A stretch of 64,000 nucleotides of DNA from Streptomyces sp. NBC_00620 (GTDB taxonomy: Bacteria; Actinomycetota; Actinomycetes; Streptomycetales; Streptomycetaceae). Position 1 is the first letter of the stretch; every line of letters starts with the position of its first letter. The notes below the pieces were generated by a model. That model ran no database searches. It saw only the letters and a list, made by a program, of their open reading frames with translations, and was not told the DNA's origin. The stretch lies in contig NZ_JAPENY010000001.1 in the NCBI RefSeq assembly GCF_026341825.1, positions 186,001-250,000 of the forward strand. Direction: 5' to 3'. Below, in pieces: positions 10,768 to 35,024 of the stretch. Both the position numbers and the translations under genes were made by a program.

Positions 10768-13700
10768 TCAGGTGGTCAGGGGTTCGAAGTCCCAGTGGGG
10801 GCGCTGACGGTTGCGGGCGGCGCGGGTGCCGGGATGGTCGGGGCCCCGGGTCGCCACGAGGTCGCGGAGGGCGGCGTCCTCCGTCTTGTCGGCCCCTGGC
10901 CGGTCGCCCCAGGCCCGCAGATCGGCGGCGAGGGCGATGCGGGCGGACAGGCTCAGGGGGTGCCGGGGGCCGAGGACGTCGCGGGACTTGGGAGCTGTGT
11001 CCCGGCTGATCGCGAGCGCCGCTTCGTGGTCTCCGGCGAACGCGGCCGCGGACGAGGCGTTGAGGGCACAGCCGAGTGTCCAGGGGTGGCTGGGCCCCAC
11101 GGCCCGCGCCATGTCGTCGAAGGCCTGATCCGCGAGAGCGCGGAACTCGTCCTGTGCACCGACGGCACGCAGGATCAGAGCCTGGTTGGCGTGGGCTCCG
11201 GCGACGAACGGATGCGCAGGGCCGAGCATCCGCTCGTAGTGAGCAGCCACGGACTCGCCCATCTTCCGTGCCTGCTCGATGTCTCCGTGCTCCCGTACGA
11301 AACAGCTGTGGGCTGCGGCGAACATCAGGCTCAGGGGATCGTCCTCGCCGACCGCCCTCTCGCCGCGCACCAGGATCGAGAAGAACAAGGACTCGGCCTG
11401 CGTGAAGTCCCCGGCCTGGTAATGGCACAGGGCCAGGTTGTGCTCTGCCCGCAGGGTCTGCGGGTGGTCCGGACCCAACTCCGCCCGATGAAGGTCCGCG
11501 CTGTGCAGCTGGACCGAGACGGCCTCCCCGGTGCGGCCGAGGAGGCGCAGATCCGTCGCGTAGTGGATTTCGGAGAACAGAGTCCATGGATGATGCGGGC
11601 CCAGGACCCTGCGGCGAGCTGCCAGGGTGCTTCGATCGGTGTCACCTGCGCGCCGATAGTCACCGAGCAGGCGCAGCGACACCGCGAGGTTGTTCCGTGC
11701 CGTGAGGACGTCCGGGTGGTTCTCGTCGCCCGCGAGTTCCTCGTACGCGTCACAGACCTCCTGCGACAGGCCGTACGCCTCCTCGTAGCGTCCCAGTGCC
11801 CGCAGGTCCGCGGCGAGGCTGCCCGCGGCGCGCAGATACTCGCCGTCACGGTGGCCGCCGACCGCCCCGTGCCGCTCGGCCGCGGCGCGGCTGACGGCCT
11901 CGCTGTGCCGGTAGTCGCCGACCGCGCGCAGCAGGTTGGCGTAGTGGTGGCCGAGGTCCCACAGCAGCGGATGGTCGGGGTCGAGGAGTGACTGCCAGGC
12001 GGAGATGGCCAGTTCGGCGAGGTGGAGGCCGGTGCCGTACTCGCCGGAGAGGTAGAGGTAACGCAGACAGTCGACGACCAGTTTCTGCACGGCCGGGTCG
12101 ATGTCGTGCATGGCGTCGGCGTACTCGAGGTGCGGGACGATCTCGGCGTACGCGGGCCACGCCTCCGGATCGCCTGGCCTACCGGGGACCGCGGCGACGA
12201 GTGCGCGGCGTACCGCGGCCGCGAACTCCTCGGCGTCTTCCCAGGGAATGTCCTGGCGGACGACCTGGTGAACCATGCGGTGCATGTAAAGCGCCGCCCC
12301 CTGTGACTCCAGTCGGATCACCGAGTACTGGGACAACCGCTCCAGGGTCCTGTCCCACAACACTGGGTCGCGCATCAACCCGGCCAGGGATTCGGGGCGT
12401 TCACCCGCCGGTATGCCCTTGAGCAGTCGTACGGGGATGGAGCCCGGGGAGAAGAACGCGCAGAGGCGAAGGAGGTCGAGGGATTCGGGGGCGGTTTCCC
12501 ACAACCTGTTCAGCAGGATCGCCCAGGCGGTCCTGAAGGCGAGCGGGAAGTCCGCGGAGACCGAGACGACGTCCTGGTCTGCGCCGCCCCCCAGCAGGGC
12601 GATGTACTCCTGGACGGACATGTCCGAGTCGCGCAGCCAGCCGGCGGTCTGATCGAGCAGGAGCGGCAAGTCCTCCAGAGCCTCGGCGAGTTGGTCGGCC
12701 TCGGCCTCGGTGAGGCGGGGGGCACGGCGACGGATGAAGGCGACGGATTCGCGGCGATCGTAGAACGGGACTTCCAGCAGGGCGGCGCCGTGTTGTGCCC
12801 ACTCGGAATTGCGGGTCGTCAGCAGCACGTCGCCGGGGCCGGTAGGCAGCATGTCCCAGAGCAGGTCCGGCTCGTCCGCGCCGTCCGCGACGAGCAGCCA
12901 GCGGCCGTACGGTTCACCTCTGTGGAGCGCCTGGCGCACGGCTCGGATGCGTTCCCCGTACTCCTGGCCGGTCACCAGGCCGAGTGCCGGGGCGAGTTGC
13001 GCAAGGCGCTCCCGGTAGGTGACACGCCGCTCGGCGGGCACCCACCACACGACGTCGTACTCGGAGCTGAACCGGTACACGTACTCCATGGCCAGTTGGG
13101 TCTTGCCGACACCCGACATGCCGTGCAGCGCGACAGCACCGAAATCCGTGTCCTGGAACAGCCGGCGTACCTCGGTGAGCAGCGCTTCCCGGCCGGTGAA
13201 GCGGACGTTGCGGCGTGGCACTCCGCCCCATACCTCGGGCTGCTCCAAGGGGAACCGTGGGCGGACACGGCCGGAGTCGTCCGGCAGCGGCTCTGTCGGG
13301 AGGCCGAGCCGGTCCAGCAGCCGCCGTTCGGCCTCGCGGGCGTCCATGTCGCGCAGGTCGGCCGGTGCGAGGACCGCGGCAGCGGACGGAACGGGAGTCG
13401 AGGTGATGCTGACAGCCGCGAACCGGTCGGCGTTCGGGGCGACGACCTCGCGCAGGGCCGCGTTCCATTCGGCGTGGCTGCGCGGACCCAGCTGGAAGTA
13501 CCACTCGCTGAGGACCAGGAGTACCTGCCCCGAAGTTGCGAGAAGGTCGTGCAGCGCGTCCGCCACCGGCACCCCCTCGGGCAGGTCCCAGCGCCGCTGG
13601 GTGACGCGCAGGCCGCGCCGCTCCAGCAGGTCCGCGATCCACACGGCCCAGGCCCTGTTGAAGCCGGCATAGCTGATGGTGACGGTCCGCCCGTCGTCCC

Positions 13701-14214
13701 GCTCGGGGACGGGCTCCGGCCGGGTGGTGACGTCGGGGCGCGGCTCGCGCGGAGTCGGCCTGGGCGCGGCGGGCCGGGACGCCCGCGCCCGTACGACCTC
13801 CGCCAGTTGTGCCGCCGGAGCCCGGCCCGGTTCCCGCTCCCGTATCACCGACCGGAGTTCGGCCTTGCGGACCGGCACTCCCCACTGGTTGCTCACTGTC
13901 AGCCACAGCGAGGCGGGCCCCGGGATGGAGCCTGTCGAGACCCGGAAGTCGGCCGGTCCGTAGGTGCCGCCGAACCGGTGCAGGACGACGCTGGGTTCGT
14001 CGAGTGCCGTGCAGACGAAGTGCGGGGAACCGTCGAGGGCAACGGTGAAGGTGAACTCCTCGTCCGGGTAAGGCCATTCGGGGTCGGGGCCGTGCGCTGA
14101 GAGTGGCCCGCGCAGGTCGACGGTGACGAGGTAGTCGCAGTCCGTCTCGGCCTCGTGCGGCCAGGCGACGACGGGTTCGATGAGGAGGGGATGCTGCTCG
14201 TCGGGGGTGGTCAC
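10768..14214 (-). CDS. TIR-NB-ARC-TPR STAND protein with an extra N-terminal domain (FxsT-like paralogue)
   Basis: The 1148-residue protein begins at GTG 14214, overlapping the CHAT gene stop as GTGA. Residues 1-125 form a beta-rich domain of no family I recognise. A Pro/Arg linker follows, then a TIR domain (about 176-290, TVTISYAGFNRAWAVWIADL through LSEWYFQLGPRSHAEW). The NB-ARC NTPase starts near 340 with Walker A GMSGVGKTQ (about 365-373) and Walker B-like LLVADGADEPD. The second half is TPR repeats with recurrent LGPDHPxTL. The C-terminus ends RPHWDFEPLTT, nearly identical to the end of the paralogue at 18739. TIR domains cleave NAD or mediate oligomerisation, and NB-ARC/TPR proteins are signal switches. 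It is the last gene of its operon. Confidence 0.88.
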   Translation of the reverse strand: MTTPDEQHPLLIEPVVAWPHEAETDCDYLVTVDLRGPLSAHGPDPEWPYPDEEFTFTVALDGSPHFVCTALDEPSVVLHRFGGTYGPADFRVSTGSIPGPASLWLTVSNQWGVPVRKAELRSVIREREPGRAPAAQLAEVVRARASRPAAPRPTPREPRPDVTTRPEPVPERDDGRTVTISYAGFNRAWAVWIADLLERRGLRVTQRRWDLPEGVPVADALHDLLATSGQVLLVLSEWYFQLGPRSHAEWNAALREVVAPNADRFAAVSITSTPVPSAAAVLAPADLRDMDAREAERRLLDRLGLPTEPLPDDSGRVRPRFPLEQPEVWGGVPRRNVRFTGREALLTEVRRLFQDTDFGAVALHGMSGVGKTQLAMEYVYRFSSEYDVVWWVPAERRVTYRERLAQLAPALGLVTGQEYGERIRAVRQALHRGEPYGRWLLVADGADEPDLLWDMLPTGPGDVLLTTRNSEWAQHGAALLEVPFYDRRESVAFIRRRAPRLTEAEADQLAEALEDLPLLLDQTAGWLRDSDMSVQEYIALLGGGADQDVVSVSADFPLAFRTAWAILLNRLWETAPESLDLLRLCAFFSPGSIPVRLLKGIPAGERPESLAGLMRDPVLWDRTLERLSQYSVIRLESQGAALYMHRMVHQVVRQDIPWEDAEEFAAAVRRALVAAVPGRPGDPEAWPAYAEIVPHLEYADAMHDIDPAVQKLVVDCLRYLYLSGEYGTGLHLAELAISAWQSLLDPDHPLLWDLGHHYANLLRAVGDYRHSEAVSRAAAERHGAVGGHRDGEYLRAAGSLAADLRALGRYEEAYGLSQEVCDAYEELAGDENHPDVLTARNNLAVSLRLLGDYRRAGDTDRSTLAARRRVLGPHHPWTLFSEIHYATDLRLLGRTGEAVSVQLHSADLHRAELGPDHPQTLRAEHNLALCHYQAGDFTQAESLFFSILVRGERAVGEDDPLSLMFAAAHSCFVREHGDIEQARKMGESVAAHYERMLGPAHPFVAGAHANQALILRAVGAQDEFRALADQAFDDMARAVGPSHPWTLGCALNASSAAAFAGDHEAALAISRDTAPKSRDVLGPRHPLSLSARIALAADLRAWGDRPGADKTEDAALRDLVATRGPDHPGTRAARNRQRPHWDFEPLTT

Positions 14215-15509
14215 CGCGCTTCCCCTTCCCGTGCCGTGAGTCGCAGTGTGGTCAGGGGGTGGCCGTAGTAGTGGAACATGAAGGCGTAGAGCAGCCGCAG
14301 GATCCGTTTCTGGCCCGTCTCGTCCACCTTGCCGTCGTCGTCGCGGATCGGCGGGATGGCGGACGGGGGGCCGAACGCCTCGGCCGCGCGGGCCCGGTAG
14401 GAGAGCAGCGTCCGAGTGACGGGGCGATGCGGGTGGCGGGCGACCTCTTCGACCAGGCCGCGTACCAGGGCGCGGGCATCCTTGTCCCCGACCTGGCCCG
14501 CCGTGACGATGCAGCCTCCGGCCCCTTTGCGCAGGAAGAGTTCGGCGAAGCCGCGCAGCGCGTGCTCTCCTTGGGCGCTGTTGAGCACGGCCCGCCCTGA
14601 GTGGCAGGCGTTCAGGCACACCAGGGAGCGGTCGACGCCCAGGGCGCCCATGGTCTGGCCTTCCAGTTCCGCCCAGGTGCGGTTGCCGAGGGTGAGGCGC
14701 GGGACGCTGTCGCCGTAGGTGCCGTGGCAGCCCATGTACACGAGACCGGTGGGCTCGCCGGGTGTGTCGAGGGTCTGCAGGAAGGGGGTCATCCTGACGT
14801 GCAGTTGGTGTGCGTAGGGCCTGAACACCCGTCCGTCGTCGGCCATCTCGTGGTGGAGGTAACCGAGCACGCGGCCACGGCAGTCCGTCCGCTCGCGCGG
14901 CAGGTCGTAGCGGGTGTCGTGAACGGTCGTCCAGCGGGACAGCACGACCTGCGCGCCCAGCCAGGCTTCCCGCTGGTCTCGACCGGGGTCGGCAGGCAGC
15001 AGGAAGAGTTCCCAGGGGAGTTCGTATCCCGTGTCGTCCCACACGAGGAGGCGAAGTGCGGCGCCGTGCCGGGCGCGGATCCGGTTGAACCACTGGCCCA
15101 GTTCCGGCTGATTGTGCGACCAGAGATGAATGCCGCGCAGGATGTCCGCGGGGTACTCGCCGTCACCGCGGACGTTGCCGAGTCCGACTCCGGGGGCGCT
15201 CAGGCGCGGGGACCGGGACGCGCTGCGGACGCCGAGGTCGCCGCACCAGCCGGTCACCCGGTAGGCGTCCCGCCCGTCGCTGTCGTGGGTACGGACGACG
15301 TACAGCACGGCGTCCCCGTCCTGGAGGCGCTGGTACGGGTGGGACACGCCTCCTCCGACGCCCGCCGCGGCCCGGTGCGGCTGCCGGAGACCGCGTACGG
15401 AAGCGGGAGCGCGGCGGGCCGCCTCCTTCAGGCCCGGCAACGACGCCCGCCGCACCATCGCCCCGGTCCCGGACAGCCACCGGGGGCCGCGCTGGTCGTC
15501 AGCCTCCAT
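14211..15509 (-). CDS. CHAT-domain caspase-like protease
   Basis: The 432-residue protein has the catalytic dyad of CHAT (caspase HetF-associated with TPRs) peptidases: His262 in VYMGCHGTYGD and Cys302 in VCLNACHSG, spaced as in the family. The C-terminal half also matches (FLRKGAGGCIVTAGQV). The N-terminal 120 residues are unassigned. ATG 15509 overlaps the end of the vWA gene by 11 bases and has GAGGGGCGGG upstream; the open frame continues to 15725 but only as a shadow of that gene. Its stop overlaps the start of the STAND protein. CHAT proteases are activated by partner sensors; here the likely partners are the neighbouring STAND and AAA/vWA proteins. The substrate is unknown. Confidence 0.9.
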   Translation of the reverse strand: MEADDQRGPRWLSGTGAMVRRASLPGLKEAARRAPASVRGLRQPHRAAAGVGGGVSHPYQRLQDGDAVLYVVRTHDSDGRDAYRVTGWCGDLGVRSASRSPRLSAPGVGLGNVRGDGEYPADILRGIHLWSHNQPELGQWFNRIRARHGAALRLLVWDDTGYELPWELFLLPADPGRDQREAWLGAQVVLSRWTTVHDTRYDLPRERTDCRGRVLGYLHHEMADDGRVFRPYAHQLHVRMTPFLQTLDTPGEPTGLVYMGCHGTYGDSVPRLTLGNRTWAELEGQTMGALGVDRSLVCLNACHSGRAVLNSAQGEHALRGFAELFLRKGAGGCIVTAGQVGDKDARALVRGLVEEVARHPHRPVTRTLLSYRARAAEAFGPPSAIPPIRDDDGKVDETGQKRILRLLYAFMFHYYGHPLTTLRLTAREGEAR

Positions 15510-17277
15510 CGCGGACCCGCCCCTCCACGACGGTAGCGCCGAGCGTCTCCGCCAGCGCGAACGGCAGGTCCCCGTAAGGACTTCGTGCCGCATCGACGAC
15601 CGCCACCCGCAGTCTGCTGCGGTCCATGGCGGAGATGGGAGCCGCGGCGGTGAGGCTGTCCTCCACTCCCGCAGTGGCAACGGGCCCGTGCAGGCGGCCG
15701 GTGTGACTGGCCAGCAGCGGAACATTGCCGCGGCCGTCGGTCACCACGACCAGCCAGGCCTCCGCGAGGGCACTGCCCTGTCGGCGAAACGCCGCGCGCA
15801 GCACCTGCGCGGCCTGTTCGATCCCGTGGGCAAGGGGTGTGGCCCGCCCCTTCGGCCGGTACAGGGCGGCGAGGACACGCGGGTCGAGTACACCGCGCGC
15901 CGCGAACGACTCGGCGCGAAGTTCGTCCGCCGCGTCGGCGCCGCCGACCTCGATGACGTGGGCGGCGGCTCGTGCGGTGTAGGCCCACTGAAGGAACGGG
16001 GTGAGCGCGTCCTGCCAGTCCCAGTCACCGCGGCAGGTGTGGTCGAGGAGAAGGGTCAGCAGTCGCTCGGGGGCGGGGGCGCGGAGGCGGCTGTGCAGGT
16101 CGACGGGCGCGACCGTGAACCGTGTGTTGCCCCGGATCCGCTGGTGCACGGCTGCTTCCCGCACGGTGCGCACGAGCGCGAGATCCCGGAGGTCGCGCGC
16201 ACGCCGGGTGCCCACGACGGGGCCGCGCGTCGAGGCCGGACCCGAGCGGCGCTGCCAGGGGTTGCGCAGCGGCATGAACTCGCGCAGGACCGCGGCCTCG
16301 TCCTCCGGGTACGGCATGCCCAGCGTGACAGCCGGCGTGGGGCCAACGCCTACGGGGTCCCCGGGCGCGAGCAGCGGCTGCTCCTCGCCCGGAGTGCGCC
16401 GCTGCTCCCGCCGCCCACCGCGATGGCTGCCATGGGGACGTGGCAGCGGTGGAGGGGGCAGCGGGGCCGGGGCTTCGCTGTCCGCGCTGTCATCGACCGC
16501 CGCCGAGTCCGTGACGGGGAGCCCGATGAGCCGCGCCGCCTCCTCGCAGTGCCGGGCGGTGACCTCCGGTTGTCCGTCGAGGGGCGCGAGCGCCCGTGCG
16601 AGCCGTGCGAGCGCCAGGCTTCTGCGCGGTCCCGCTCCCGGCCCGAGGATCTCCTGTACCCGGTCGACGGCCTCGTCCGTGGTGGCCGCGAGGACGGTGG
16701 GGCGCGCCGCCTCGGGCGGCCACTCGTCGGGGACGGCGTGCAGTCCTGGCACGGAGAGCCGTACCGCGAACCGGTCCAGCAGGTGGGGTGTCACCCGCCC
16801 GGCATCCTCGGAACGGCACACCGCGAGCCATCGGGCCTGTGGCCTGATCGCCAGGCGCAGTCCCGGCTGTTCGACGGAGACGACGTCGGAGCCGATGAGC
16901 TGCACGGCCGCCCGCATTCCGGCGACGCTGAGCGTCGTCAGGTCCGGAACCACGGCCAGCGGCGGCGGCCCCGCACTGTCGAGCAGAGGTCCGGGGCCTA
17001 CGGTGAACGCGACGCCGTCCAGGTACCGTTCGAGCCGCGAACGGCTCCAGAGGTCTTCGTCGCGGGTGGCGGCGCCGAGCGGGATCCGGGGGACGGGCGT
17101 GTCGGCCGGGCTGCCGAGGATCGCTGCGAAGAGGCGGGAGACGGGTTCGACCAGACGGGGTTCCAGGTCGAAGAGGAGCACGCCGCCGAGGCCCGGATCG
17201 AGAGCGGCACAGCGGAACGCAAGCTCCAGCCGCCGTGCGTCGTCGGGCGGTTCGGGTGACGGAGTCTCGGTAGTCAT
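15499..17277 (-). CDS. ChlD-like protein: degenerate AAA domain plus C-terminal vWA domain
   Basis: In this 592-residue protein, residues 1-245 resemble the AAA portion of Mg-chelatase D subunits but have no Walker A motif. A Pro/Arg linker spans about 265-300, and a von Willebrand A domain occupies the last 230 residues. The metal-binding MIDAS is only partly kept: DHTCR replaces the usual DxSxS, while the Thr (GRATPLAHG) and Asp (VVVTDGRGN) positions remain. It follows the ChlI-like ATPase by 9 bases and overlaps the CHAT gene, so the three are translationally linked. With no third chelatase subunit or tetrapyrrole genes nearby, a role as an adaptor of a conflict-type AAA/vWA machine is likelier than metal insertion. 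Confidence 0.8.
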   Translation of the reverse strand: MTTETPSPEPPDDARRLELAFRCAALDPGLGGVLLFDLEPRLVEPVSRLFAAILGSPADTPVPRIPLGAATRDEDLWSRSRLERYLDGVAFTVGPGPLLDSAGPPPLAVVPDLTTLSVAGMRAAVQLIGSDVVSVEQPGLRLAIRPQARWLAVCRSEDAGRVTPHLLDRFAVRLSVPGLHAVPDEWPPEAARPTVLAATTDEAVDRVQEILGPGAGPRRSLALARLARALAPLDGQPEVTARHCEEAARLIGLPVTDSAAVDDSADSEAPAPLPPPPLPRPHGSHRGGRREQRRTPGEEQPLLAPGDPVGVGPTPAVTLGMPYPEDEAAVLREFMPLRNPWQRRSGPASTRGPVVGTRRARDLRDLALVRTVREAAVHQRIRGNTRFTVAPVDLHSRLRAPAPERLLTLLLDHTCRGDWDWQDALTPFLQWAYTARAAAHVIEVGGADAADELRAESFAARGVLDPRVLAALYRPKGRATPLAHGIEQAAQVLRAAFRRQGSALAEAWLVVVTDGRGNVPLLASHTGRLHGPVATAGVEDSLTAAAPISAMDRSRLRVAVVDAARSPYGDLPFALAETLGATVVEGRVRDGG

Positions 17278-17286
17278 GTGGCGGGC

Positions 17287-18231
17287 TCAGCCGGACTCGA
17301 AGAGGTCCTTGATCAGGGCATGGTCGTCGAGCCGCCAGTCGAAGGTCCCGCCGTGTGCCGACTCGGGCCTTCGGTGGCGCAGGGCTAGCGGGATGGCCCT
17401 CAGCAGGTGTCGCGGCTCGACCTCTGCGACACCGTCCAGGGCGGCGAGGGCGCGGGCGGCCTGTATGGCGACGATCTCGCCCCGCTGCCCGACGGCGTCG
17501 AGCCGCCCCGCCGCCTCGGCGCACAGACTCAGCACGCCGTCCGGCACCTCGACGCGCGGGAGCCGCTGCCGCGCGGCTACAAGACGGTCGAGGACGGCGG
17601 TGTTGTCCCGCAGGGCCTCGGCCAGCCACTCGGAGGGGCCCCGGGTCCGCTCCGCCTCGAAGTCGAGGACGGTACGGAGCATTCGACGCCGGGCTCCCGT
17701 GTCCAGGTCCGCGGCGCTGACCATGAGCCCGAACCTGTCGAGCAACTGCGGCCGAAGCCCGCCCTCTTCGGGGTTCATGGTTCCGACGAGACCGAAGGCG
17801 AGCTGCTTGGCCGTGGCCAGCCCCTCGCGCTGCACGGACAGCACCCCCGTGGAGACGACGTCGAGGATGATGTTGACGACGTGGTCCTCCAGGAGGTTCA
17901 CCTCGTCGACGTAGAGCAGTCCCTTGTCGTGCGCCTCCTCCAGCAGCCCGGGCTGCTCACGGGTCTCGCCGCGCATCAGGGCATCGAGCCACCAGCCTCC
18001 GACGACTCGGTCCTCGGTCGCGTTGATGGGCAGGGTGACGGGCAGTTCCCCCTCCGCCATCAGGGCGAAGGCCCGGACGATCGTGGACTTGGCGGTGCCG
18101 CGCTGCCCGGCGATGAGAACACCCCCGATGCGCGGCTGCACATGGTTGAGCTCCAGGGCCAGTTTCAGGTCGTCCTGGCCCACGATGCGGCTGTACGGGA
18201 GGATCCACACCCCTGGTGGTGTGCCGCTCAC
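17287..18231 (-). CDS. ChlI/MoxR-type AAA+ ATPase
   Basis: The 314-residue ATPase shows Walker A GQRGTAKST (residues 42-50), Walker B LLYVDEVNLLEDHV (about 105-118), the sensor stretch GTMNPEEG, the LLDRFGL arginine-finger region and a C-terminal lid, as in Mg-chelatase I subunits. I chose GTG 18231, which overlaps the trypco1 stop as GTGA and begins VSGTPPGVWILPYSRIVGQD, the usual family start; ATG 18285 would extend into the trypco1 gene. It pairs with the ChlD-like vWA protein immediately downstream, an arrangement in which the ATPase remodels a target selected by the vWA partner. Confidence 0.88.
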   Translation of the reverse strand: MSGTPPGVWILPYSRIVGQDDLKLALELNHVQPRIGGVLIAGQRGTAKSTIVRAFALMAEGELPVTLPINATEDRVVGGWWLDALMRGETREQPGLLEEAHDKGLLYVDEVNLLEDHVVNIILDVVSTGVLSVQREGLATAKQLAFGLVGTMNPEEGGLRPQLLDRFGLMVSAADLDTGARRRMLRTVLDFEAERTRGPSEWLAEALRDNTAVLDRLVAARQRLPRVEVPDGVLSLCAEAAGRLDAVGQRGEIVAIQAARALAALDGVAEVEPRHLLRAIPLALRHRRPESAHGGTFDWRLDDHALIKDLFESG

Positions 18232-18656
18232 GAGGCGGCTCCGGGCGCGCTCCCCGCCGCGTCCGGAGCGCCGGAGGTCTGCCATCGGAAGGTGATCTGG
18301 AGCTGCGCTTCGGCGCCGCTCTTGACCAGCGCCGCGACACCCGCGTCGACCTTGATGGAAAGCTGCAGCTCGATCTCGTCGGGGCGCAGATCGTCGCCGA
18401 GTTCGCCGAACCTCCGTACGGCCTGTGCCGCACAGCGGCGTGCCAGGTCGAGACCGTCGGTGTAGGCGTCGCGGGCGACCTCGACGACGCGCTGGGCGGG
18501 GTTGCCCCTGGTCTCCTCGTCGCCGTAGACGAGATCGAGACCGTCGAGAGCGGCCGGGCCGAGGTCCGAGTCGACTTCGACGGGGATCGGCCCGTCCGCG
18601 CCCTCCGGGACAGGCCCCACTAAGATCACCACACGTCCCCCTGGTTCAACTCTCAT
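18228..18656 (-). CDS. Trypsin-co-occurring domain 1 (CU044_2847-like) protein
   Basis: In the 142-residue protein, residues 20-125 match the small trypco1 fold as I know it: a short beta start (IPVEVDSD), a helix (AQRVVEVARDAYTDGLDLARR), then LRPDEIELQLSIKVDAGVAAL and AEAQLQITFRW. The same pattern appears in the protein at 32036, which opens the other half of the cluster. Such proteins co-occur with trypsin-like, CHAT and STAND effectors and are thought to be adaptor or regulatory components. The start may instead be the GTG about 24 bases further in, after GGGGGA. It is the first gene of the downstream operon, 82 bases after the FxsT stop. Confidence 0.7.
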   Translation of the reverse strand: MRVEPGGRVVILVGPVPEGADGPIPVEVDSDLGPAALDGLDLVYGDEETRGNPAQRVVEVARDAYTDGLDLARRCAAQAVRRFGELGDDLRPDEIELQLSIKVDAGVAALVKSGAEAQLQITFRWQTSGAPDAAGSAPGAAS

Positions 18657-18738
18657 GTCCTGTGCGGCTGTTGAGAGAGAACTGGGTCATTCCCCGGCAC
18701 ACAGTGGGTTATGCGCACCGGGGTCTTACCACCGCGCG

Positions 18739-21750: not shown

Positions 21751-21784
21751 GCAGTGGCCTCCCCGCACGGGCCTTCCCGCGCGA

Positions 21785-21879: not shown

Positions 21880-21920
21880 CTGCGTCCGGGAAGCGGGACA
21901 TTCGGCGGGTGAATGGCGCT

Positions 21921-24766: not shown

Positions 24767-24971
24767 TCAGGCCACCCCCATGATGTACGGCCCGTGATCC
24801 CACGGTACGGCCCGCGCCACGACCCCCTGACCCGTACGGGGCCGCATTCCCTGAAGGGGACCGGACGCAAACGCCGCCCAATCGAACTTGTCCGGTTCAA
24901 CCACAAGGCAGACCGGAACCACCGCCCCGCGGGCTCCGTTTGAGTACGTTTGTTCCTCACCGAGAGGCGCC

Positions 24972-25157
24972 TCAGAACGCGTTGTTGAACCCCCAGAGCA
25001 TCTCGCTCGGTTGCCCGGCCCGCTCCGTCAGCTCGGCCAACACCTCGGCCAGCACCGGGTGTTGAACCGTCCTCAGGTCCGCCAGATCCAGCGACAGCAG
25101 ATCGGGCAACTCCGGCAGCTCCTCCCCGGAACCCGGCAGATCACTCTGTACGCCCAT
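24972..25157 (-). CDS. fxsA: FxsA-like RiPP precursor peptide (variant C-terminal core)
   Basis: The 61-residue acidic peptide contains LRTVQHPVLAEVLAEL, the leader helix found in FxSxx-COOH precursors, and ends MLWGFNNAF. The last residues are F-N-N-A-F rather than the canonical F-x-S-x-x, so Asn replaces the usual Ser. An aromatic-x-Asn triplet is a known target pattern of three-residue cyclophane maturases, which makes FNN a credible crosslink site. GGAGGGGG precedes ATG 25157. The gene follows the vWA gene by only 27 bases and precedes fxsB, so it is probably co-transcribed with both. Crosslinking and export are not visible from sequence. Confidence 0.85.
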   Translation of the reverse strand: MGVQSDLPGSGEELPELPDLLSLDLADLRTVQHPVLAEVLAELTERAGQPSEMLWGFNNAF

Positions 25158-25184
25158 GCTTTCCCCCTCCTTCGCTCACTCCGG

Positions 25185-28100
25185 TCACTCCAGCTCGGCC
25201 AGCCGCTGGGCGGTCTGCCGGGCGGTCGGCTCACCCGTGGCCACCGCGCCGTCGGGCAGCCTCGACCACTCGGCCCGGGCAGCCCGGTACGCCTCGCGTG
25301 CGGCGCGCGGGCGCGCGGCCGCCTCGTAGGACATACCCCGCCAGTGGTGCGCCTGCGCGCCCAACTCCATGGCCTCCTGGCGCCGCCGGTCGGTCTCGGC
25401 GACCTCCTCGGCATCGCGGGCCGACTCCGCCGCGGCGCGGAAGGCGTCGACGGCCTCGTCGAGGCGCGCGGGGCGGCCCAGGCTCTGGTACGCCTCGAAA
25501 TGGGCCTGCCCGAGCTCCAGCCAGCAGCGCGCGGCCATCAGCGGTTCACCGGCCTCCTGGGCCGCGAGGCCGAGGAGGTGTTCGGCCTCGCGCAGATCGA
25601 CGCGGTCGCCCCGGTCGCGGTGGCGCAGCATCAGGGCCCGGCCGAGCAGCAGCAGGCGGCGGGCGAGGTGGGCGCTGCCCGCAGGAGTCTCCGTACGGCA
25701 GTCGCGCAGCACCCGGATGGCCCGGGAGAGCGAGTCGCGTGCACCGGGTCCGGTGTCGAGCACGGCGCGGCGCAGCAGCACTTCGCCCCACTCGGCGAGG
25801 ACGTCCGCGTGCGCGGGGGCGTCCCTGGGCACACCTCGGGCGGCGTGCTCGAAGTGCTCGGCGGCGGCCCGCAGTTCACCCGGGTCGCCCGACTCGGCGT
25901 ACCGCGCCACCCTGATGCGGCCCGCGCGCACCAACAGCGAGGCACGCAGGCCCTGTTCACGGGTCAGGCCCAGTGCCTCGTCGACGCGTGCCTGGGCGTC
26001 GTCGAGGGCGCCGCCGGACTTCAGGAGCGCGTCGATGAGGTCGAGGAGGATGCGGACGCGGGCGCGGGAGGGTTCGCCCGCGAGGGGGAGCACATGGCCG
26101 GGGCCCGGGTCGAGGGCGTCGCGCAGGGAGTGCGCGCCCTGCTCCGCGTACAGCCGGGCCTGTTCGTCGTCGGCGGTGTCTCCCGACAGGTGCAGCAGTA
26201 CGCGGCCGTGGGCCAGCGGGAGTTCGGGCGGGCGCTGGCTCCGTTCGGGCCAGGCGTCGGCGAATGCCTCCAGCATGCCGACCGCGCTCTGGAGCAGCGC
26301 GCTGTCGCCGCCGAGCCGCCACTGTGTCTCCAGCGCGCGCACCCGCTCCAGGGTGAGCCCGAGTGCTTCCTCGGTCTCCAGTTCGGTCGCCGCGCAGGCC
26401 ACCGCGTACTCGCGGTCGGCGCGCTGCAGGAGGTCGAGCGCGCCGCGCTTGTCGCCGCGGCGCCTGCGGTCGATGGCGGCGGAGTGCAACACCCTTGCCA
26501 GCGCGGCCCGTTCACGCAGCGCCCTGGGGTGCGCGACGGCTCGCTCGGCGGCCGCCTCCGCCTCCCGCAGCAGCTCCGGGCCGCCCTGTACCTCCCACAG
26601 CCGCAGCAGGCTGGTGGCGTACTCGGCCCAGAGTTCGGGGTCGGCCCCGGCGGGTCGTTCGTGTTCGGTGGCGCCGCGCAGCAGCTGTACGGCGTCGATG
26701 AGGTCCTGCACCATGCCGTCGGTGTCGAACTGGCCGACCAGGGAGCGGGCCCGGATCACCGCGGTGTGGGTCGGGCGGTCGTCGACGAGGTCCGTCCGAC
26801 CCCGGCCGCCGTACAGCGCGAACTGTTCCGGCAATGGCATGAAGCGCTCCAATACCCGTGCGGCGACCTCGGCGAAGGGCTGCGGCACGAGGGTGCCGCC
26901 GCCGTTGTCCCCGTTGTCTCCGTGCCCGCTCTGGTATCCGTCACCGGGCGCGTACGGCCGCCCGGAACCGCCCTCGCCGAGCTGCGCGAGCGCCAGGGCC
27001 GGGAAGTTGGGGCCGCCCTTGCCGAAGCGGTTCTCGATGTACTCGGAACAGTGCTTGAGGACGAGCATGGCCTCGTCCCGTCCCAGCGGCGACAGCAGCG
27101 CCTCCTGCACGCCGGGCGCGAACTCGTACCACTGGGCGCCGTCCGCCCCGTACTCCTCTTCCTTGGCCCGCGAGACCAGGCCGCTGAGCAGCACCTCGGC
27201 CAGTTCGGAGGGTCCGGAGTCGGGCAGCATGGTCCGCTGCACCAGCTGCATCACGGGCAGGCTGAGCGGCGCCGCCGCGACATAGCCGGCGAGTCGTCCG
27301 GCGGTCTGGGAGGCGTTGGAGCGGAACCGGCTGACCAGTTCGAGCGCGGACAGTGTGCGTCCGGGGCGGGCCGCCCGGGCGGGCGCGTGGTTCGCGCGCA
27401 CCCAGCCGACCGCTCCGGCGACGGGACCGGCGCCGGCACCGGACAGCAGCCGCGCCCAGGCGCCGAGCGCGGCGGGCTCCGGAGGCAGTACGGGCACCGG
27501 GAGCGCGCCTTCGCGGGCCTCCGGCGGGGCGCCCGCCGGCAGCCGGACCTTCAGCGTGGCGGCGCCCGCGAGCGCCTCGCCGCGCGTCAACTCGCCGTAC
27601 GAGACGGGGAGTCGGGTGCGGTTCCACATGCGCTGCGGCAGCGGCTGGAGTACGGCGGCGGGGCCCTGCCGGGACAGGTGGTGGAGCAGCCGGTGGGCGT
27701 GGCCGCTGTGCCACAGCGGGCCCGCGCAGTCGCTGACCAGAACGGTGATCCGGCGGCCCGTGGGGTCGCTCAGCCGGTCCGCGGAGTGCAGCGGGGCCGC
27801 GTGCGGCTCCGGACTGCGGCTGACGGCCGGCGCGCCGTCCGGGCCGGGGTGCAGATGGCTGACCTGGATGTCCCAGAAGGCACCCAACTGGCCGAAGACC
27901 TGCTCCAGTTCGGCGAACATCCGGTCCCACACCCGCATCGACGAGGAGGCGTCCATCACCAGCTGGAGCGCGGCGTCGGCCCGGGTCACCCCGCGGAACA
28001 CCGGCAGCACGAGACCGCCCGCCCGGGCGCTCAGCTCCGCGGTCGCCGTCTCGTCGAGGACCGTCCGCAGGGGCGGGGCGGCGGTCCGGTAGCCCTGCAA

Positions 28101-28607
28101 CGGCCGTAAGGCGCGCTGGAGTTCGAGCGGCGCGGGGAACGCGGGCGCGGCGGGCACCCCGATCGGCAGCGCCGTGGCCCGGCCGTACCCACGCGTGCGC
28201 GCCCCGCCGTCCAGCGGTACGGGGTACAGCGCGACACGGCGGTCCGCGCCCGCACCCTGCTCGGGCTCCGGCCGGTCGCCGGGCGGGACGGCAACCGTGT
28301 CCTGGGTGTCCGGCCGATCGGCGACCGGGTCGCGACCGGCGGGCAGCGCGCCGGGCGACGGGACGGCTCCCTCCTGCACGTCACCGGCGTCCGGCGGACG
28401 GGTCCAGCGGGCCAGCCAGAGGGTGTCGCACAGCTGCTCGGCGTCGGGGTCGAGCCCGATCCGCCGCAGCCGGACGACGAGTTCGGCGATCGGGTCGCCG
28501 CCGGAAGGCCCGGAGGATCCGGAGGGCCCGGAAGGTCCGGAAGGTGTCGACCCGCTTCCGGTCGGTATCGGAGGGACGGGCCCGTGGCGCGCCGCTGCGT
28601 CAGGCAT
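25185..28607 (-). CDS. SAV_2336-type vWA protein with TPR-like C-terminal half
   Basis: The 1140-residue protein begins with a Ser/Gly/Pro-rich tail and a short helical segment (IAELVVRLRRIGLDPDAEQL). A vWA-like domain near residues 200-350 carries an intact MIDAS (LQLVMDASSSMRVWDRM) and a later VLVSDCAG. The C-terminal 550 residues are alpha-helical repeats rich in Ala/Leu/Arg, of TPR type. It begins 7 bases after the MoxR-like stop, with its ribosome site overlapping that stop. A vWA protein with an adjacent MoxR ATPase and a VMAP-type protein matches the described vWA-MoxR-VMAP ternary systems, so it probably selects or presents the target of the ATPase. Confidence 0.82.
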   Translation of the reverse strand: MPDAAARHGPVPPIPTGSGSTPSGPSGPSGSSGPSGGDPIAELVVRLRRIGLDPDAEQLCDTLWLARWTRPPDAGDVQEGAVPSPGALPAGRDPVADRPDTQDTVAVPPGDRPEPEQGAGADRRVALYPVPLDGGARTRGYGRATALPIGVPAAPAFPAPLELQRALRPLQGYRTAAPPLRTVLDETATAELSARAGGLVLPVFRGVTRADAALQLVMDASSSMRVWDRMFAELEQVFGQLGAFWDIQVSHLHPGPDGAPAVSRSPEPHAAPLHSADRLSDPTGRRITVLVSDCAGPLWHSGHAHRLLHHLSRQGPAAVLQPLPQRMWNRTRLPVSYGELTRGEALAGAATLKVRLPAGAPPEAREGALPVPVLPPEPAALGAWARLLSGAGAGPVAGAVGWVRANHAPARAARPGRTLSALELVSRFRSNASQTAGRLAGYVAAAPLSLPVMQLVQRTMLPDSGPSELAEVLLSGLVSRAKEEEYGADGAQWYEFAPGVQEALLSPLGRDEAMLVLKHCSEYIENRFGKGGPNFPALALAQLGEGGSGRPYAPGDGYQSGHGDNGDNGGGTLVPQPFAEVAARVLERFMPLPEQFALYGGRGRTDLVDDRPTHTAVIRARSLVGQFDTDGMVQDLIDAVQLLRGATEHERPAGADPELWAEYATSLLRLWEVQGGPELLREAEAAAERAVAHPRALRERAALARVLHSAAIDRRRRGDKRGALDLLQRADREYAVACAATELETEEALGLTLERVRALETQWRLGGDSALLQSAVGMLEAFADAWPERSQRPPELPLAHGRVLLHLSGDTADDEQARLYAEQGAHSLRDALDPGPGHVLPLAGEPSRARVRILLDLIDALLKSGGALDDAQARVDEALGLTREQGLRASLLVRAGRIRVARYAESGDPGELRAAAEHFEHAARGVPRDAPAHADVLAEWGEVLLRRAVLDTGPGARDSLSRAIRVLRDCRTETPAGSAHLARRLLLLGRALMLRHRDRGDRVDLREAEHLLGLAAQEAGEPLMAARCWLELGQAHFEAYQSLGRPARLDEAVDAFRAAAESARDAEEVAETDRRRQEAMELGAQAHHWRGMSYEAAARPRAAREAYRAARAEWSRLPDGAVATGEPTARQTAQRLAELE

Positions 28608-28614
28608 CAGCGGT

Positions 28615-29649
28615 TCACCTCGGGCGGTCGAGTCGCTGGATGAGCAGGTCCGCGAGACGGTCGCGACTTGGCGGGGCTGCCGCGTCGGTGAGGTAGATGG
28701 CGTTCAACAGCTGGTCGGCGGCCACTAGTTCGCTGCGGGAGCGTTCCAGGAAGTGGGTGATGAGATCGTCTCCGGCCCGCGCGGCCTCGTCGCCGAGGTG
28801 GGCGCGTACGAAGGTGGCGAGACGTTTGTGATCCGGGCGGCCGAGTTCCAGGTGGATGCAGCGGCGCATGAGGGGGGCGGGAAAGTCGCGCTCGCCGTTG
28901 CTGGTGAGCACCACGAACGGGAAGGCGCGGCAGCGCACCCGGCCGTCCCGCACCCGCGCCTTGGTGCCGTCGGCGGTGAGCACCTCGGCCTCGCCGTCCG
29001 GCAGCCGGTCGGCGACGCGCTCCAGCTCGGGGATCGCGAACTCGCCCTCCTCCAGCACGTTGAGAAGGTCGTTCGGCAGGTCGATGTCACTCTTGTCCAG
29101 CTCGTCGATGAGCAGCACACGCGGGGTGTCGGACGCCAGCAGCGCGGTTCCGAGGGGGCCGAGGCGGATGTAGCTGCCGATGCCCTCGACGGAGCCGGGG
29201 GCCCCGGGGGTGGCCGGGTCGGCGCCCTGCGGCGCGGCGATCTGCACGTCCTGGAGCCGGGCGATCGCGTCGTAGTGGTACAGCCCGTCCTGGAGTGTGG
29301 ACCGGCTGACGATCGGCCACCGCAGCACATTGCCCAGACCCAGTTCGTACGCCACGGAATGCGCGAGCGTGCTCTTGCCCGCGCCCGGACTGCCGGTGAC
29401 GAGGAGGGGCCGGCGCAGATAGAGCGCCGCGTTGATCATCTCGAGTTCCTCGGCGCCCGGCCGGTGCAGTTCGGCCAGGTGCCGGTGCGCGCCCAGCCTG
29501 CGGTCCTCGGAACCGTCACCGTTCGTCCCGGCCGCGGCCTCGGCCCGGCTCGCGAAATCGCGCCACGGAGGCGGGTCCGGGAGGCGGTCTATGCCGTCGT
29601 GGGGTTCACCGGCGCCCCGGTAGATGAGCCACTCGCTGGATTCGGTCAT
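28615..29649 (-). CDS. MoxR-like AAA+ ATPase
   Basis: The 344-residue ATPase has Walker A GSPGAGKST (residues 86-94), Walker B VLLIDELDKSDIDLPNDLL, sensor VLTSNGERDFPAPLMRRC and an arginine-finger region, all in MoxR order. The N-terminal 60 residues are specific to this subfamily. ATG 29649 follows GAGGA with good spacing; the upstream ATG 29703 is poorer. It is placed between the protease/VMAP gene and the vWA gene and probably forms a hexamer that remodels one of them. Confidence 0.9.
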   Translation of the reverse strand: MTESSEWLIYRGAGEPHDGIDRLPDPPPWRDFASRAEAAAGTNGDGSEDRRLGAHRHLAELHRPGAEELEMINAALYLRRPLLVTGSPGAGKSTLAHSVAYELGLGNVLRWPIVSRSTLQDGLYHYDAIARLQDVQIAAPQGADPATPGAPGSVEGIGSYIRLGPLGTALLASDTPRVLLIDELDKSDIDLPNDLLNVLEEGEFAIPELERVADRLPDGEAEVLTADGTKARVRDGRVRCRAFPFVVLTSNGERDFPAPLMRRCIHLELGRPDHKRLATFVRAHLGDEAARAGDDLITHFLERSRSELVAADQLLNAIYLTDAAAPPSRDRLADLLIQRLDRPR

Positions 29650-29665
29650 TGCCCAGTCCTCGTCG

Positions 29666-29812
29666 TCACTCGTCCACCACGGCAGCCGTCGAACGTGCAT
29701 CACGGTATCGACCCTCGGGGGGCCTCGATAGAGCCAAGTGCGAGGTCATGGCAGCCCAGTTGGGCGCCGTACGGCCGTGTTCGGCCACGTGGTCCCGGCC
29801 CTGCTCGGCCAT
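29666..29812 (-). CDS. Possible small ORF between protease and ATPase genes
   Basis: The 227-bp gap after the protease stop contains a reading frame with strong G/C third-position bias. From ATG 29812 it encodes a 48-residue peptide starting MAEQGRDHVAEHGRTAPNWA and ending STAAVVDE. The coding-like bias extends further 5' in this frame (HPAVQSPYEVAPPGPYG), but there is no start codon there. The ATG that overlaps the protease stop (ATGA) is in a different frame. It is either a small gene with an unusual start, or one damaged by a frameshift. No domain is recognised. Confidence 0.35.
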   Translation of the reverse strand: MAEQGRDHVAEHGRTAPNWAAMTSHLALSRPPEGRYRDARSTAAVVDE

Positions 29813-29876
29813 GCCGTACGGGCCCGGCGGGGCCACCTCGTACGGGCTCTGTACGGCGGGGTGCCGGATCCTCCGG

Positions 29877-32039
29877 TCATGGCGCCTCCAACAGGTCTCC
29901 GGTCCCCGGCAAGGGCTGGCGTGGATCGTCGTAGAACAGGGCAATTCCCTTGGCCCAGAAGGTCTCTGGCTTTCCCGCGCGCAGGCCCGCCCGCAACGCG
30001 TGGACGAGCTCGGGGAGCCGCTCCGCGCTGCCCGCGCCCGCGACGGTGTCACCCGCCCGCCGGTGGAACTCGCCGCAGACGGCGTCCGTCTGGCCCCGCC
30101 AGCGCCGCCAGAGCGCGACGCCGAAGCCTCCGTGCACGATCCGTACGAGCGCCACCGGATCGTCCTCGAAACGCTGGTCGCCGTAGCGGCAGAGCACCGG
30201 AACCGTTCTGTGCGACAGGTCGCGCAGTGACCCCGCGGGTGGCACGGGTACCCGCAACCCGTCCTCGCAGTCCAGGACTTCGGCCCTCGCGCCGTACGCG
30301 TGGATGAAGTGCCAGCGGGCCTCGCGTCCGTCGTGCGCGTCGTGCTCCTCCTCCACGGGAACCTGCCCCCCGCCGGGTGAAGGGCGATCGTCACCGTCGG
30401 AGAGCCGGTCCGCGTCGGGCAACTGGTCCCGGTCGGCGCAGCGCACGACGACGGGCCTGCGGGCGCCGAGCGGTGGCTCGTCCGGCCCGAACTTCCAGGC
30501 GTCGACGTCCAGTCCGAGCAGCGGATGCGGCAGCGCGACCTGGAGGACGGCGGGCCGTCCGGGTTCGTCGCACTCGCGGAACGCCTCGGCGAGGGGCGCC
30601 GCGAGGGCACCCGGCAGGCCGGTCAGCGGGGTGCGCTCGCCGTCGCCGAAGCGCACCACCTCGCCGGTCGGCCGGCTCACGGAGACCCGCCAGTCGCAGC
30701 GGTCCGGTTCCCAGCCCAGCTGCACCAGTTCGACGAGGGCGAAGGGGTGGGGCGCACCGTGGGCGGCGTGTGCCGTCGCGTGCGCCGAGTCGTGCGCCGG
30801 CTGTGCTTCCGAAGGGAACGGCTCACGCTGCGGCGCCTGGAGCCGCTCGATCCGCTGCCGGCCGAGGCGGCGGCGGTACTCGGGACCCGCGCGGCCCTCC
30901 GCGGTCTGCCGCACCCACTCCCACAGCGACCGCTCCGCGCTCTGGGTGCCGGGCGTGACGAAGGGGCGCTCCGCGGACAGCACCCGCATCGCGTAGTCCA
31001 GGACGAGTTCCAGCGCGCCGTCCTGGCGGGGGCTCTCGTACAGCGCGCCCAGTCCGTCGCGCCAGCCGCGCGGCGCCGGGTGCGGGATCGCGGCCCGGCC
31101 GCCGAGGAGGGATTCGAGGATGTCCAGCAGGGCGCGGGTGCTGACCGGCGGCGGCAGATCGGCGAGCCGGCCGAGCAACTGGGTCCGCTCGTCGGGGTCG
31201 AGGGCGCGGCCCGGTCGTGCACCCAGCTGGTTCTGCACGTCGGCCCAGGTGCTGCGGTCGTTGTCGGGGTGGCGCTGCCGGTCCCGGTGGTATCTGTCAT
31301 GGGCGTGGAAGACGGCCTGGTAGAGGTCGTCGTGCTCGGCCCGCACCTCTTCAGCGGGCACGGCCAGGGAACGCAGCTGCTCCACGCCCGTGGAGGTGCC
31401 GCCGAGCCCGCGGTCCGCCTGCGACTTCAGTACGCCGACGACCGCACCGCTCACGGGATCGACCACCGGCCCGCCCGAGACGCCCGGCGGCAGCACATCG
31501 CCGCCCAGCCGTATCTGCTCGTCCGCGGACCAGCCACCGAGGGTGCCCTGCACCGTGCAGGTGCCGTTCAGACGGGTCAGCTCCCCGCCCACCACGGACC
31601 ATCCCGAGTAGAAGACTCTCGCCTCCCCGTAGTACGCGGCCGGACGCTCGGTGACATAGGAGCAGTCGTGGTCGACGGGCTCGCGCAGCCGCACGAGCGC
31701 CAGGTCCGGGGCCGGCCAACTGCCCCGTACGGCACGCTCGACGTGCTCCGGGAGAGACGTCGCCACCTCACCGGCGACAGCGGACGTACCGCGTCCCGGC
31801 CCGGTCTCGTACACCACGGTGACCTCGCCCCCCTCCCCGCTCCGTGCCACATGCGCGCAGGTGAGAACCCAGTTGGGAGCGACAAAGAACCCGCTCCCGA
31901 GGAACGTGCCGGGTTCGTCCAGGTCATACCCGGCCCCCGCCCGATGGATGCGGACCGTCGCCGCCATGACGAGATCACGCAGCGCACGGTGAGCGTTCCC
32001 GAGCCCGCCCGATGCGCCTGGGGCGTGCCCGTCCGTCAT
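29877..32039 (-). CDS. Trypsin-like serine protease fused to a VMAP-type region
   Basis: In this 720-residue protein the trypsin fold covers about residues 25-210 with the full triad: His63 in VLTCAHV, Asp112 in DLALVRL, Ser188 in GVSGGPVV. No signal peptide is present, so it acts in the cytoplasm. A helical middle segment (YQAVFHAHDRYHRDRQ through TRALLDILESLL) resembles the death-like or VMAP middle modules. The last 350 residues (FALVELVQLGWEPDR and following, VVVRCADRDQLPDADRLSD) match the vWA-MoxR-associated C-terminal region. Its ATG overlaps the trypco1 stop (ATGA). It is the likely effector of the ternary system, held inactive until the AAA/vWA pair acts. Confidence 0.88.
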   Translation of the reverse strand: MTDGHAPGASGGLGNAHRALRDLVMAATVRIHRAGAGYDLDEPGTFLGSGFFVAPNWVLTCAHVARSGEGGEVTVVYETGPGRGTSAVAGEVATSLPEHVERAVRGSWPAPDLALVRLREPVDHDCSYVTERPAAYYGEARVFYSGWSVVGGELTRLNGTCTVQGTLGGWSADEQIRLGGDVLPPGVSGGPVVDPVSGAVVGVLKSQADRGLGGTSTGVEQLRSLAVPAEEVRAEHDDLYQAVFHAHDRYHRDRQRHPDNDRSTWADVQNQLGARPGRALDPDERTQLLGRLADLPPPVSTRALLDILESLLGGRAAIPHPAPRGWRDGLGALYESPRQDGALELVLDYAMRVLSAERPFVTPGTQSAERSLWEWVRQTAEGRAGPEYRRRLGRQRIERLQAPQREPFPSEAQPAHDSAHATAHAAHGAPHPFALVELVQLGWEPDRCDWRVSVSRPTGEVVRFGDGERTPLTGLPGALAAPLAEAFRECDEPGRPAVLQVALPHPLLGLDVDAWKFGPDEPPLGARRPVVVRCADRDQLPDADRLSDGDDRPSPGGGQVPVEEEHDAHDGREARWHFIHAYGARAEVLDCEDGLRVPVPPAGSLRDLSHRTVPVLCRYGDQRFEDDPVALVRIVHGGFGVALWRRWRGQTDAVCGEFHRRAGDTVAGAGSAERLPELVHALRAGLRAGKPETFWAKGIALFYDDPRQPLPGTGDLLEAP

Positions 32040-32572
32040 CCCCGGCCCCCAAGCGCCGCGTCCCCACCGACACCGTGCGCCGGGGCGCCGGGGGGCGCGC
32101 CCCCTGGGACGGCGCGCGGCGAACCGGCACTCCCGTCCGTCGGGGCGAGGTCCGGTCCGTCGTCGGCTCCGTCGACCGGGTCGATGACCGGTCCGCCTCC
32201 GCCCCCGTCGACCGAGTCGAGGTCCGGTGGGCCGCCGTTCCAGGTGAGGGTCACCGTGAGACCGGCCTTGGCCTCGCCGTCCGCGAGGAGGCCGATCACC
32301 TTGCCGGCCTTCGCCGTCAGCTCGATGCCGAACTCGACGCTGACCTCGTCGGGACGGACGGCGCGCAGCGGTGCGGCCAGTGAGCGCGCGACGCTGGTGA
32401 TCACCGACTGCAGGCTCTCGACCTGTGCCTCGATCCGCTCACCGAACCCCGTGTCCGTGTACGACAGCCCGCCGGCCGGCGCCTCCAGCTCCTCGGCCCC
32501 CGAGATCCGGGCCCACACCGGTGTCCCGTCGGGCATCTCGATCCGTGCGATCCGGGTCACTCCATCACCCAT
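32036..32572 (-). CDS. Trypco1 (CU044_2847-like) protein, first gene of the upstream operon
   Basis: The 178-residue protein has residues 5-110 in the trypco1 pattern: ARIEMPDGTPVWARISG, then a helix (ERIEAQVESLQSVITSVARSL), LRAVRPDEVSVEFGIELTAKAG and AKAGLTVTLTWNGG. The remaining 65 residues are Asp/Gly/Pro-rich and probably disordered. It is translationally coupled to the trypsin-like protease, the partner for which the domain is named. GTG 32560 is an alternative start. The 184-bp gap to the divergent gene at 32757 must hold the operon promoter. Confidence 0.8.
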   Translation of the reverse strand: MGDGVTRIARIEMPDGTPVWARISGAEELEAPAGGLSYTDTGFGERIEAQVESLQSVITSVARSLAAPLRAVRPDEVSVEFGIELTAKAGKVIGLLADGEAKAGLTVTLTWNGGPPDLDSVDGGGGGPVIDPVDGADDGPDLAPTDGSAGSPRAVPGGAPPGAPAHGVGGDAALGGRG

Positions 32573-35023: not shown

Positions 35024-35024
35024 G

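Follow-up and report, generated by a model that had tools for sequence, protein, structure and literature searches.

The window analysed here is a 64,000-nucleotide stretch of Streptomyces sp. NBC_00620 (contig NZ_JAPENY010000001.1, positions 186,001 to 250,000), and its subject is a block of 13 genes on the minus strand at 10768..32572. According to their domains, these genes can be divided into 3 groups: arm 1, a peptide core and arm 2. An earlier note on this DNA had described the block as two arms of AAA/vWA, protease and STAND (signal transduction ATPases with numerous domains) genes built around a ribosomally synthesized and post-translationally modified peptide (RiPP). The block with its named domains was confirmed: both Trypco1 copies, both AAA/vWA pairs and two TIR-NB-ARC-TPR proteins are present, and the two proteases, a trypsin and a CHAT protein, have intact catalytic residues. 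The same gene order was found again in dozens of genomes, which is more than chance. The genes, with their best family matches, are as follows.

32036..32572, minus strand: arm 1, Trypco1a (trypsin-co-occurring domain 1); PF19493, 71.9 bits.
29877..32039, minus strand: arm 1, trypsin-like protease fused to VMAP-C; PF20028, 125.5 bits, and PF13365, 46.5 bits.
28615..29703, minus strand: arm 1, MoxR-type AAA+ ATPase; PF07728, 26.3 bits.
25185..28607, minus strand: arm 1, SAV_2336-type vWA protein with a long C-terminal repeat-like region; NF041121, 498 bits, no Pfam match.
24972..25157, minus strand: core, FxsA precursor peptide of 61 amino acids, C-terminus MLWGFNNAF; TIGR04268, 45.5 bits (cut-off 28).
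23375..24766, minus strand: core, FxsB radical SAM/SPASM maturase; TIGR04269, 428 bits (cut-off 370).
21921..23378, minus strand: core, HExxH protein, predicted alpha-ketoglutarate-dependent peptide hydroxylase; TIGR04267, 165 bits (cut-off 40).
18739..21768, minus strand: core, FxsT1, TIR-NB-ARC-TPR STAND switch; NF040586, 840.7 bits (cut-off 300).
18228..18656, minus strand: arm 2, Trypco1b; PF19493, 54.6 bits.
17287..18231, minus strand: arm 2, chelatase-I-like (MoxR clade) AAA+ ATPase (ChlI); PF07728, PF17863 and TIGR02442, 287 bits (cut-off 779).
15499..17277, minus strand: arm 2, chelatase-D-like protein (ChlD), AAA lid and vWA with a degenerate metal ion-dependent adhesion site (MIDAS); TIGR02442, 71 bits.
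14211..15509, minus strand: arm 2, CHAT (caspase-like) protease; PF12770, 31.5 bits.
10768..14214, minus strand: arm 2, FxsT2, N-terminal Ig/macroglobulin-like domain (about residues 1-125) fused to TIR-NB-ARC-TPR; NF040586, 838.3 bits.

The claim that most of these genes are coupled by 4-base overlaps was wrong. Taking the first start codon of each frame, plus individually read starts, such overlaps occur at only 4 of the 12 junctions: Trypco1a/VMAP, FxsB/HExxH, Trypco1b/ChlI (ChlI starting with GTG at 18231) and CHAT/FxsT2. ChlD and CHAT overlap by 11 bases, and the other 7 junctions are gaps of 7 to 205 bases, that in front of Trypco1b measuring 82.

The FxSxx-COOH peptide set named in the earlier note stands as far as family models are concerned, since the precursor and the adjacent FxsB both score above their cut-offs; the peptide tail does not conform. 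The FxsA of the window ends in WGFNNAF, with Asn at the Ser position of FxSxx, and a literal F-x-S-x-x C-terminus is absent. The CxxxCxxC motif of FxsB was kept in 74/74 aligned proteins and the HExxH motif in 53/53. Because the family of the HExxH protein is now named by NCBI as aKG-HExxH peptide beta-hydroxylase, this protein is probably not a third protease. Among 150 drawn Streptomyces genomes, which were used for all whole-genome counts, FxsB above the family cut-off was found in 94.

Arm 1 has the VMAP, MoxR, vWA order of VMAP ternary systems, and its VMAP-C carries an N-terminal effector, the trypsin, with an adjoining Trypco1 (PF20028, PF13365, PF19493). The triad His63/Asp112/Ser188 is kept in all 20 aligned trypsin-VMAP proteins, that of the window included; the Walker A Lys and Walker B Asp/Glu of MoxR are kept in 22/22, and the MIDAS Asp of the vWA protein in 22 of 24 rows (2 rows have a gap there). 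The FxSxx type of VMAP (MoxR-vWA) ternary system was described by Kaur et al. 2020 (eLife; PMC7159879). In the available part of that paper its vWA protein bears TPRs only, the peptide genes have a TIR-AP-ATPase gene downstream, and about 20% of actinobacterial VMAP systems are accompanied by peptide-processing genes. The N-terminus of the window MoxR contains WLIYRG and PPWRDF, which, by eye on the translation, correspond to the motifs WxhapG and PsWRxa given there. Judged by domains and gene order, arm 1 with the core is this published system, with all its named parts in place. Consequently the union in the window is not wholly new, the combination of arm 1 and peptide set being already present in the available text of PMC7159879.

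Arm 2, comprising Trypco1, a ChlI-like AAA protein, a ChlD-like vWA protein, CHAT and FxsT2, is the new part and appears to be undescribed. No description of it was found in literature searches, and the words CHAT and ChlI are absent from the available text of PMC7159879, though caspase-superfamily peptidases and, elsewhere, magnesium chelatase are mentioned. PADLOC 2023 gave only weak partial matches, for 10 of the 13 block proteins. With a profile of the window ChlD, the best 80 of 95 relatives were placed in 79 loci, which were re-annotated with the window proteins. Among these listed loci ChlI was found in 73, CHAT in 68, Trypco1 in 56 and the FxsT2 N-domain in 73, some of the misses being due to contig ends. 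The arm-2 core occurs in cyanobacteria, Chloroflexi, other actinobacteria and Sorangium, the listed loci including Calothrix, Nostoc, Anaerolineae, Actinomadura and Sorangium. CHAT His262 is kept in 72/72 rows and Cys302 in 71/72 (the other is a gap), and in the vWA of ChlD the MIDAS motif DxSxS is replaced by D-x-T/S-x-[RLHWG] over 78 rows. The N-domain was modelled as an Ig/macroglobulin-like beta-sandwich (predicted local distance difference test score 88.4).

Outside Streptomycetaceae the fifth gene of arm 2 retains this N-domain, and the part downstream of it differs between genomes: NB-ARC/TPR in Nostoc, NACHT-EAD7-HATPase in an Anaerolineae bin, CHAT-FHA in Calothrix, and VMAP-C with a NYN nuclease in Actinomadura. 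From the 79 listed loci, 34 fifth genes match 79 Pfam families, among them NACHT (6), TIR (5), CHAT (4), NB-ARC (4), FGE-sulfatase (3), caspase C14 (3) and FHA (3). A fixed AAA/vWA core with hypervariable effectors is given in the available part of PMC7159879 as a hallmark of conflict systems, and in its domain make-up arm 2 has the pattern of such a system. As a separate observation, in loci L035 and L036 (12785-16120) VMAP-C stands as the variable effector after the arm-2 N-domain, with the NYN nuclease domain (L035 also has EAD2), outside its usual trypsin/MoxR context.

Concerning the connection of arm 2 to the peptide genes, arm-2 ChlD was found in 7/150 Streptomyces genomes by a single-protein query, which may miss diverged arm-2 genes. 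In 6 of the 7, FxsB lies on the same strand about 1.5 to 7 kb from ChlD; the seventh (G028) has a partial ChlD match (query 301-589), apparently at a contig end. Within the best 80 of 95 relatives, FxsB is present in 30 of the 31 Streptomycetaceae-like arm-2 loci that have at least 8 kb upstream or in which FxsB was found (7 more are cut, and L020, one of the 30, is titled only "Actinobacteria bacterium"). The exception is L073 of S. radicis. Among the listed loci outside this group, FxsB accompanies arm 2 in 1/32 (L060), with 9 cut. One database cluster of arm-2 ChlD, with 34 sequences, carries the name of S. anthocyanicus, a member of the S. violaceoruber group, to which S. coelicolor A3(2) and S. 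lividans also belong. Thus the linkage of arm 2, where present in Streptomyces, to the peptide genes held, while the two-armed union held only in part: most peptide loci are without arm 2 (FxsB 94/150 against ChlD 7/150), and 6 loci have arm 2 without arm 1. The union is accordingly a real, recurring linkage around a peptide core rather than an obligate two-armed machine.

The site of the block is bounded by the following markers, which lie outside the system.

6886..10692, plus strand: right-hand neighbour kgd, multifunctional 2-oxoglutarate decarboxylase; NF008907, 2105 bits; the same in relatives.
32757..36146, plus strand: left-hand markers, which recur in relatives, namely an open reading frame (ORF) of 61 amino acids (32757-32942), a hypothetical gene (33091-33924, minus strand), DUF4097 and PadR.

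As seen in 52 fetched stretches that reach kgd (50 distinct, because L140 repeats L020 and L141 repeats L029), every one bears arm 1, arm 2 or both. A FxsB tree of 53 rows holds 27 loci with both arms, 20 with arm 1 only, 6 with arm 2 only and 0 with neither; tree loci were gathered via ChlD or FxsB and had to include kgd or ChlD, so that these ratios are not frequencies, and N runs hide the arm-2 state of the arm-1-only rows L129 and L131. On the opposite flank the 61-amino-acid ORF is present in 20/20 arm-1-only and 6/6 arm-2-only tree loci. Of the 20 arm-1-only loci in the tree, 13 have FxsT1 or another FxsT ending at most 201 bases from kgd; in L144, L146, L148, L150 and L156 FxsT1 lies 2.0 to 4.6 kb from it. 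In the 6 loci without arm 1, the 61-amino-acid ORF or DUF4097 is followed by FxsA. The site beside kgd is therefore an allelic series of arm 1 only, both arms, and arm 2 only, each arm having been independently gained or lost at one conserved site. Once L129, L131 and L081 are removed, 7 changes of arm 2 are required on the FxsB tree, against 2 of arm 1, a result that speaks for a single core with interchangeable modules rather than for an obligate two-armed machine. Just beyond the conserved left flank a TnpB-like gene was also seen (36378-38381, minus strand; Cas12f1-like_TNB 40 bits, TnpB model 45 bits with a cut-off of 100).

The names FxsT1 and FxsT2 were given because both proteins match the NCBIfam model "FxSxx-COOH system TPR protein" far above its cut-off. 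Kinesin light chain is matched by the TPRs of FxsT, some of the matching entries being named for cargo (JIP, Torsin-1A fusions), and the NB-ARC of FxsT1 weakly matches APAF-1. The TPR groove of kinesin light chain binds short cargo peptides. The P-loop is intact, its Lys being present in FxsT2 in 34/34. FxsT2 does not form one clade: in S. canus-type and Actinacidiphila loci, and in L016/L017, it groups with the FxsT1 encoded at the same locus, and for this reason the T1/T2 labels require 8 changes (7 forced by supported branches) on a tree of 36 rows chosen from 106. With all 106 rows in FastTree, 11 changes are required, 8 of them forced. We read this as repeated overwriting of the FxsT2 STAND body from FxsT1, with the N-domain staying. 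Apart from these pairs, S. niger (L032) has a third FxsT gene, and a relative without arm 2 (L135) retains a matching gene.

Further ties between arm 2 and the core were found at other places. In the S. canus-type loci L067 and L142, arm 2 contains an additional FxsB as well as an additional FxsA-like precursor (L067 6992-7201, and L142), recognised by eye, with the tail AFYEDGPYQL. Locus L060 of Actinoplanes has the arm-2 N-domain joined in one protein to FxsC, an FxSxx protein, with FxsBH and FxsT as neighbours. A candidate precursor ending in AFQSAI, a true FxSxx tail, was seen in the same locus at 14204-14374, where it overlaps the open frame in which FxsB and HExxH are fused, next to the arm-2 module. 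Additionally, Asn occupies the third core position in 31 of 32 arm-2 rows (row L141 repeating L029), and L134 alone has it among the 12 resolved rows that lack arm 2.

The reading we favour, at a probability of roughly 45%, is that this is a predicted cyclophane-peptide locus beside kgd with two separable AAA+/vWA/protease modules, and that it is a suicide alarm in which either module would turn on the TIR proteins through the modified peptide. The gene content, the single site, the independent gain and loss of the arms, the catalytic residues and the same-locus grouping of FxsT2 with FxsT1 are observed. From these we infer that two exchangeable AAA/vWA-protease modules feed one peptide-STAND core, and predict for the whole a role as an infection or stress alarm; that the peptide serves as the signal for a self-targeting system, as the earlier note had suggested, may reasonably be inferred. 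First, FxsB would link Phe to the third residue as a cyclophane within the WGFxN tail at the C-terminus, and hydroxylation of it would be the work of the HExxH protein. MoxR-vWA or ChlI-ChlD would then act as an energy-gated threshold activating trypsin-VMAP or CHAT, and the protease would free the peptide or lift a brake. The modified FxsA tail would be the ligand of FxsT, bound by the kinesin-light-chain-like TPRs, upon which FxsT would assemble and its TIR would consume NAD+ as output. In arm 2 we probably see a second conflict cassette of the ternary type, which connected its own switch to the peptide core by exchanging its variable effector for an FxsT copy.

Several observations weigh against the proposed alarm. 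S. radicis (L073) has arm 2 with a FxsT-type switch and no FxsB in its stretch. The putative TIR catalytic Glu, equated with the catalytic residue from reading of the sequence, is present in only 61/69 FxsT1 and 26/34 FxsT2 rows; because it is not universal, some of these TIRs may be inactive. The re-copying of FxsT2 can be explained as plain gene conversion between close paralogues, and the association of Asn with arm 2 is a lead only, given that of 6 independent pairs 4 agree, 0 are against and 2 are equal (p = 0.125). Since the arm-2-only genomes G109 and G014 carry SAV_2336 vWA genes elsewhere, arm 1 may act there in trans. At other sites there are FxsB loci in which neither arm was detected (for example L133, L143 and L145). 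Lastly, with housekeeping genes as its fixed surroundings and no more than 2 distant matches in the plasmid set, the locus does not resemble a typical mobile defence island.

A somewhat unlikely alternative to the alarm is that the arms are leader-processing machines, with trypsin-VMAP and CHAT as alternative proteases maturing FxsA, the product a secreted developmental or interbacterial peptide, and the TIR-STAND proteins serving self-recognition or immunity. RiPP families usually require a leader peptidase, the core has no dedicated one, and 0 of the 52 kgd-bounded stretches are without both protease arms. However, family scans recognised no transporter among the 13 genes, one would not usually expect AAA/vWA partners and TIR-STAND proteins in plain RiPP export, many genomes have Trypco1-ChlI-ChlD-CHAT without nearby FxsB, and the FxsB loci with no detected arm at other sites count against it. 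Less probable still is the chance accumulation of two unrelated conflict systems in a defence hot spot by kgd, where the arms would merely be inherited together and the likeness of FxsT2 to FxsT1 would be gene conversion alone. The free gain and loss of arm 2, the many FxSxx loci without it, the lack of FxsB in nearly all resolvable arm-2 loci outside Streptomycetaceae and the case of L073 favour this explanation, whereas the almost constant presence of FxsB with Streptomycetaceae-like arm 2, whose switch gene is of the FxsT type, and the recurrence of the link at other sites and in another family (L067, L142, L060) speak against it. It is hardly credible that ChlI/ChlD form a genuine pair of metal chelatase subunits and that arm 2 is a metabolic insertion, for although the best NCBIfam names are cobalto-/magnesium-chelatase subunits and database relatives are named magnesium chelatase, the scores fall far under the curated cut-offs (287 against 779, 234 against 467, 71 against 779), the vWA MIDAS is degenerate, no porphyrin-binding large subunit was recognised in the block and CHAT is a recurrent partner.

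If the alarm reading is true and the peptide activates TIR-STAND proteins, a ribosomal, chemically modified ligand would be placed in bacterial cell death beside the known nucleotide messengers. The natural allelic series at one site permits clean comparisons of the role of the peptide and of which proteases act on it. No functional test of an FxSxx peptide was found in literature searches, though FxsB is common in streptomycetes. Arm 2 also adds an apparently unlisted AAA/vWA/caspase-like module to the candidate conflict systems. More tentatively, arm 2 could represent a fifth class of MoxR-vWA conflict system, composed of Trypco1, chelatase-type AAA and vWA proteins, CHAT, an Ig/macroglobulin-like carrier and hypervariable effectors. 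In streptomycetes this class would have been rewired so that a cyclophane RiPP is the second messenger which both TIR-STAND death switches share; the RiPP would be a bacterial peptide hormone of cell suicide, with a caspase-like and a trypsin-like trigger that can replace each other.

Elsewhere in the window, a large gene at 53845-57030 (minus strand) has a STAND region weakly matching the FxSxx_TPR model (G000:C2:241519-242292, 24 bits); our guess is that it could be an AfsR-like regulator. The same genome has further FxSxx_TPR loci (L001 and L002) scoring 1015 and 983 bits, above the window pair, with FxsB 4-5 kb from each. One FxSxx locus of this genome, at a distance of about 3.7 Mb, contains FxsB together with a SAV_2336 vWA gene.

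Compared to known systems, the locus is closest in parts to those of PMC7159879 as given in its available text. Like the window, the FxSxx-type VMAP system there has trypsin-VMAP, MoxR and vWA-TPR in the same order with Trypco1, together with the FxSxx peptide, radical SAM protein, HExxH protein and a downstream TIR-AP-ATPase-TPR; unlike here, the HExxH protein is read as a metallopeptidase and the peptide carries FxS rather than FxN. The FxsBH / aKG-HExxH pathway (TIGR04269, TIGR04267; available part of PMC12636437) likewise pairs a radical SAM cyclophane maturase with an HExxH hydroxylase homologue, whereas here two separate genes lie within a conflict-type locus and the chemistry is only predicted for the window peptide. 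The DGR (diversity-generating retroelement)-linked ternary systems resemble arm 2 in having Trypco adaptors (Trypco1/2) near caspase-like CHAT and CHAT or TIR effectors, but in the available part of PMC10907252 no ChlI-ChlD-CHAT order or RiPP is described. The Pfam scan found no VMAP-C (PF20028), inactive STAND core, FtsH or propeller in the arm 2 of the window. Like arm 2, the iSTAND, FtsH and beta-propeller MoxR-vWA ternary systems in the available part of PMC7159879 combine an AAA protein, a vWA protein and a further component with variable effectors, and the arm-2 P-loop GQRGTAKS fits the GXXXTAKS quoted there for the FtsH and beta-propeller systems; unlike them, arm 2 carries Trypco1, CHAT and an Ig-like domain.

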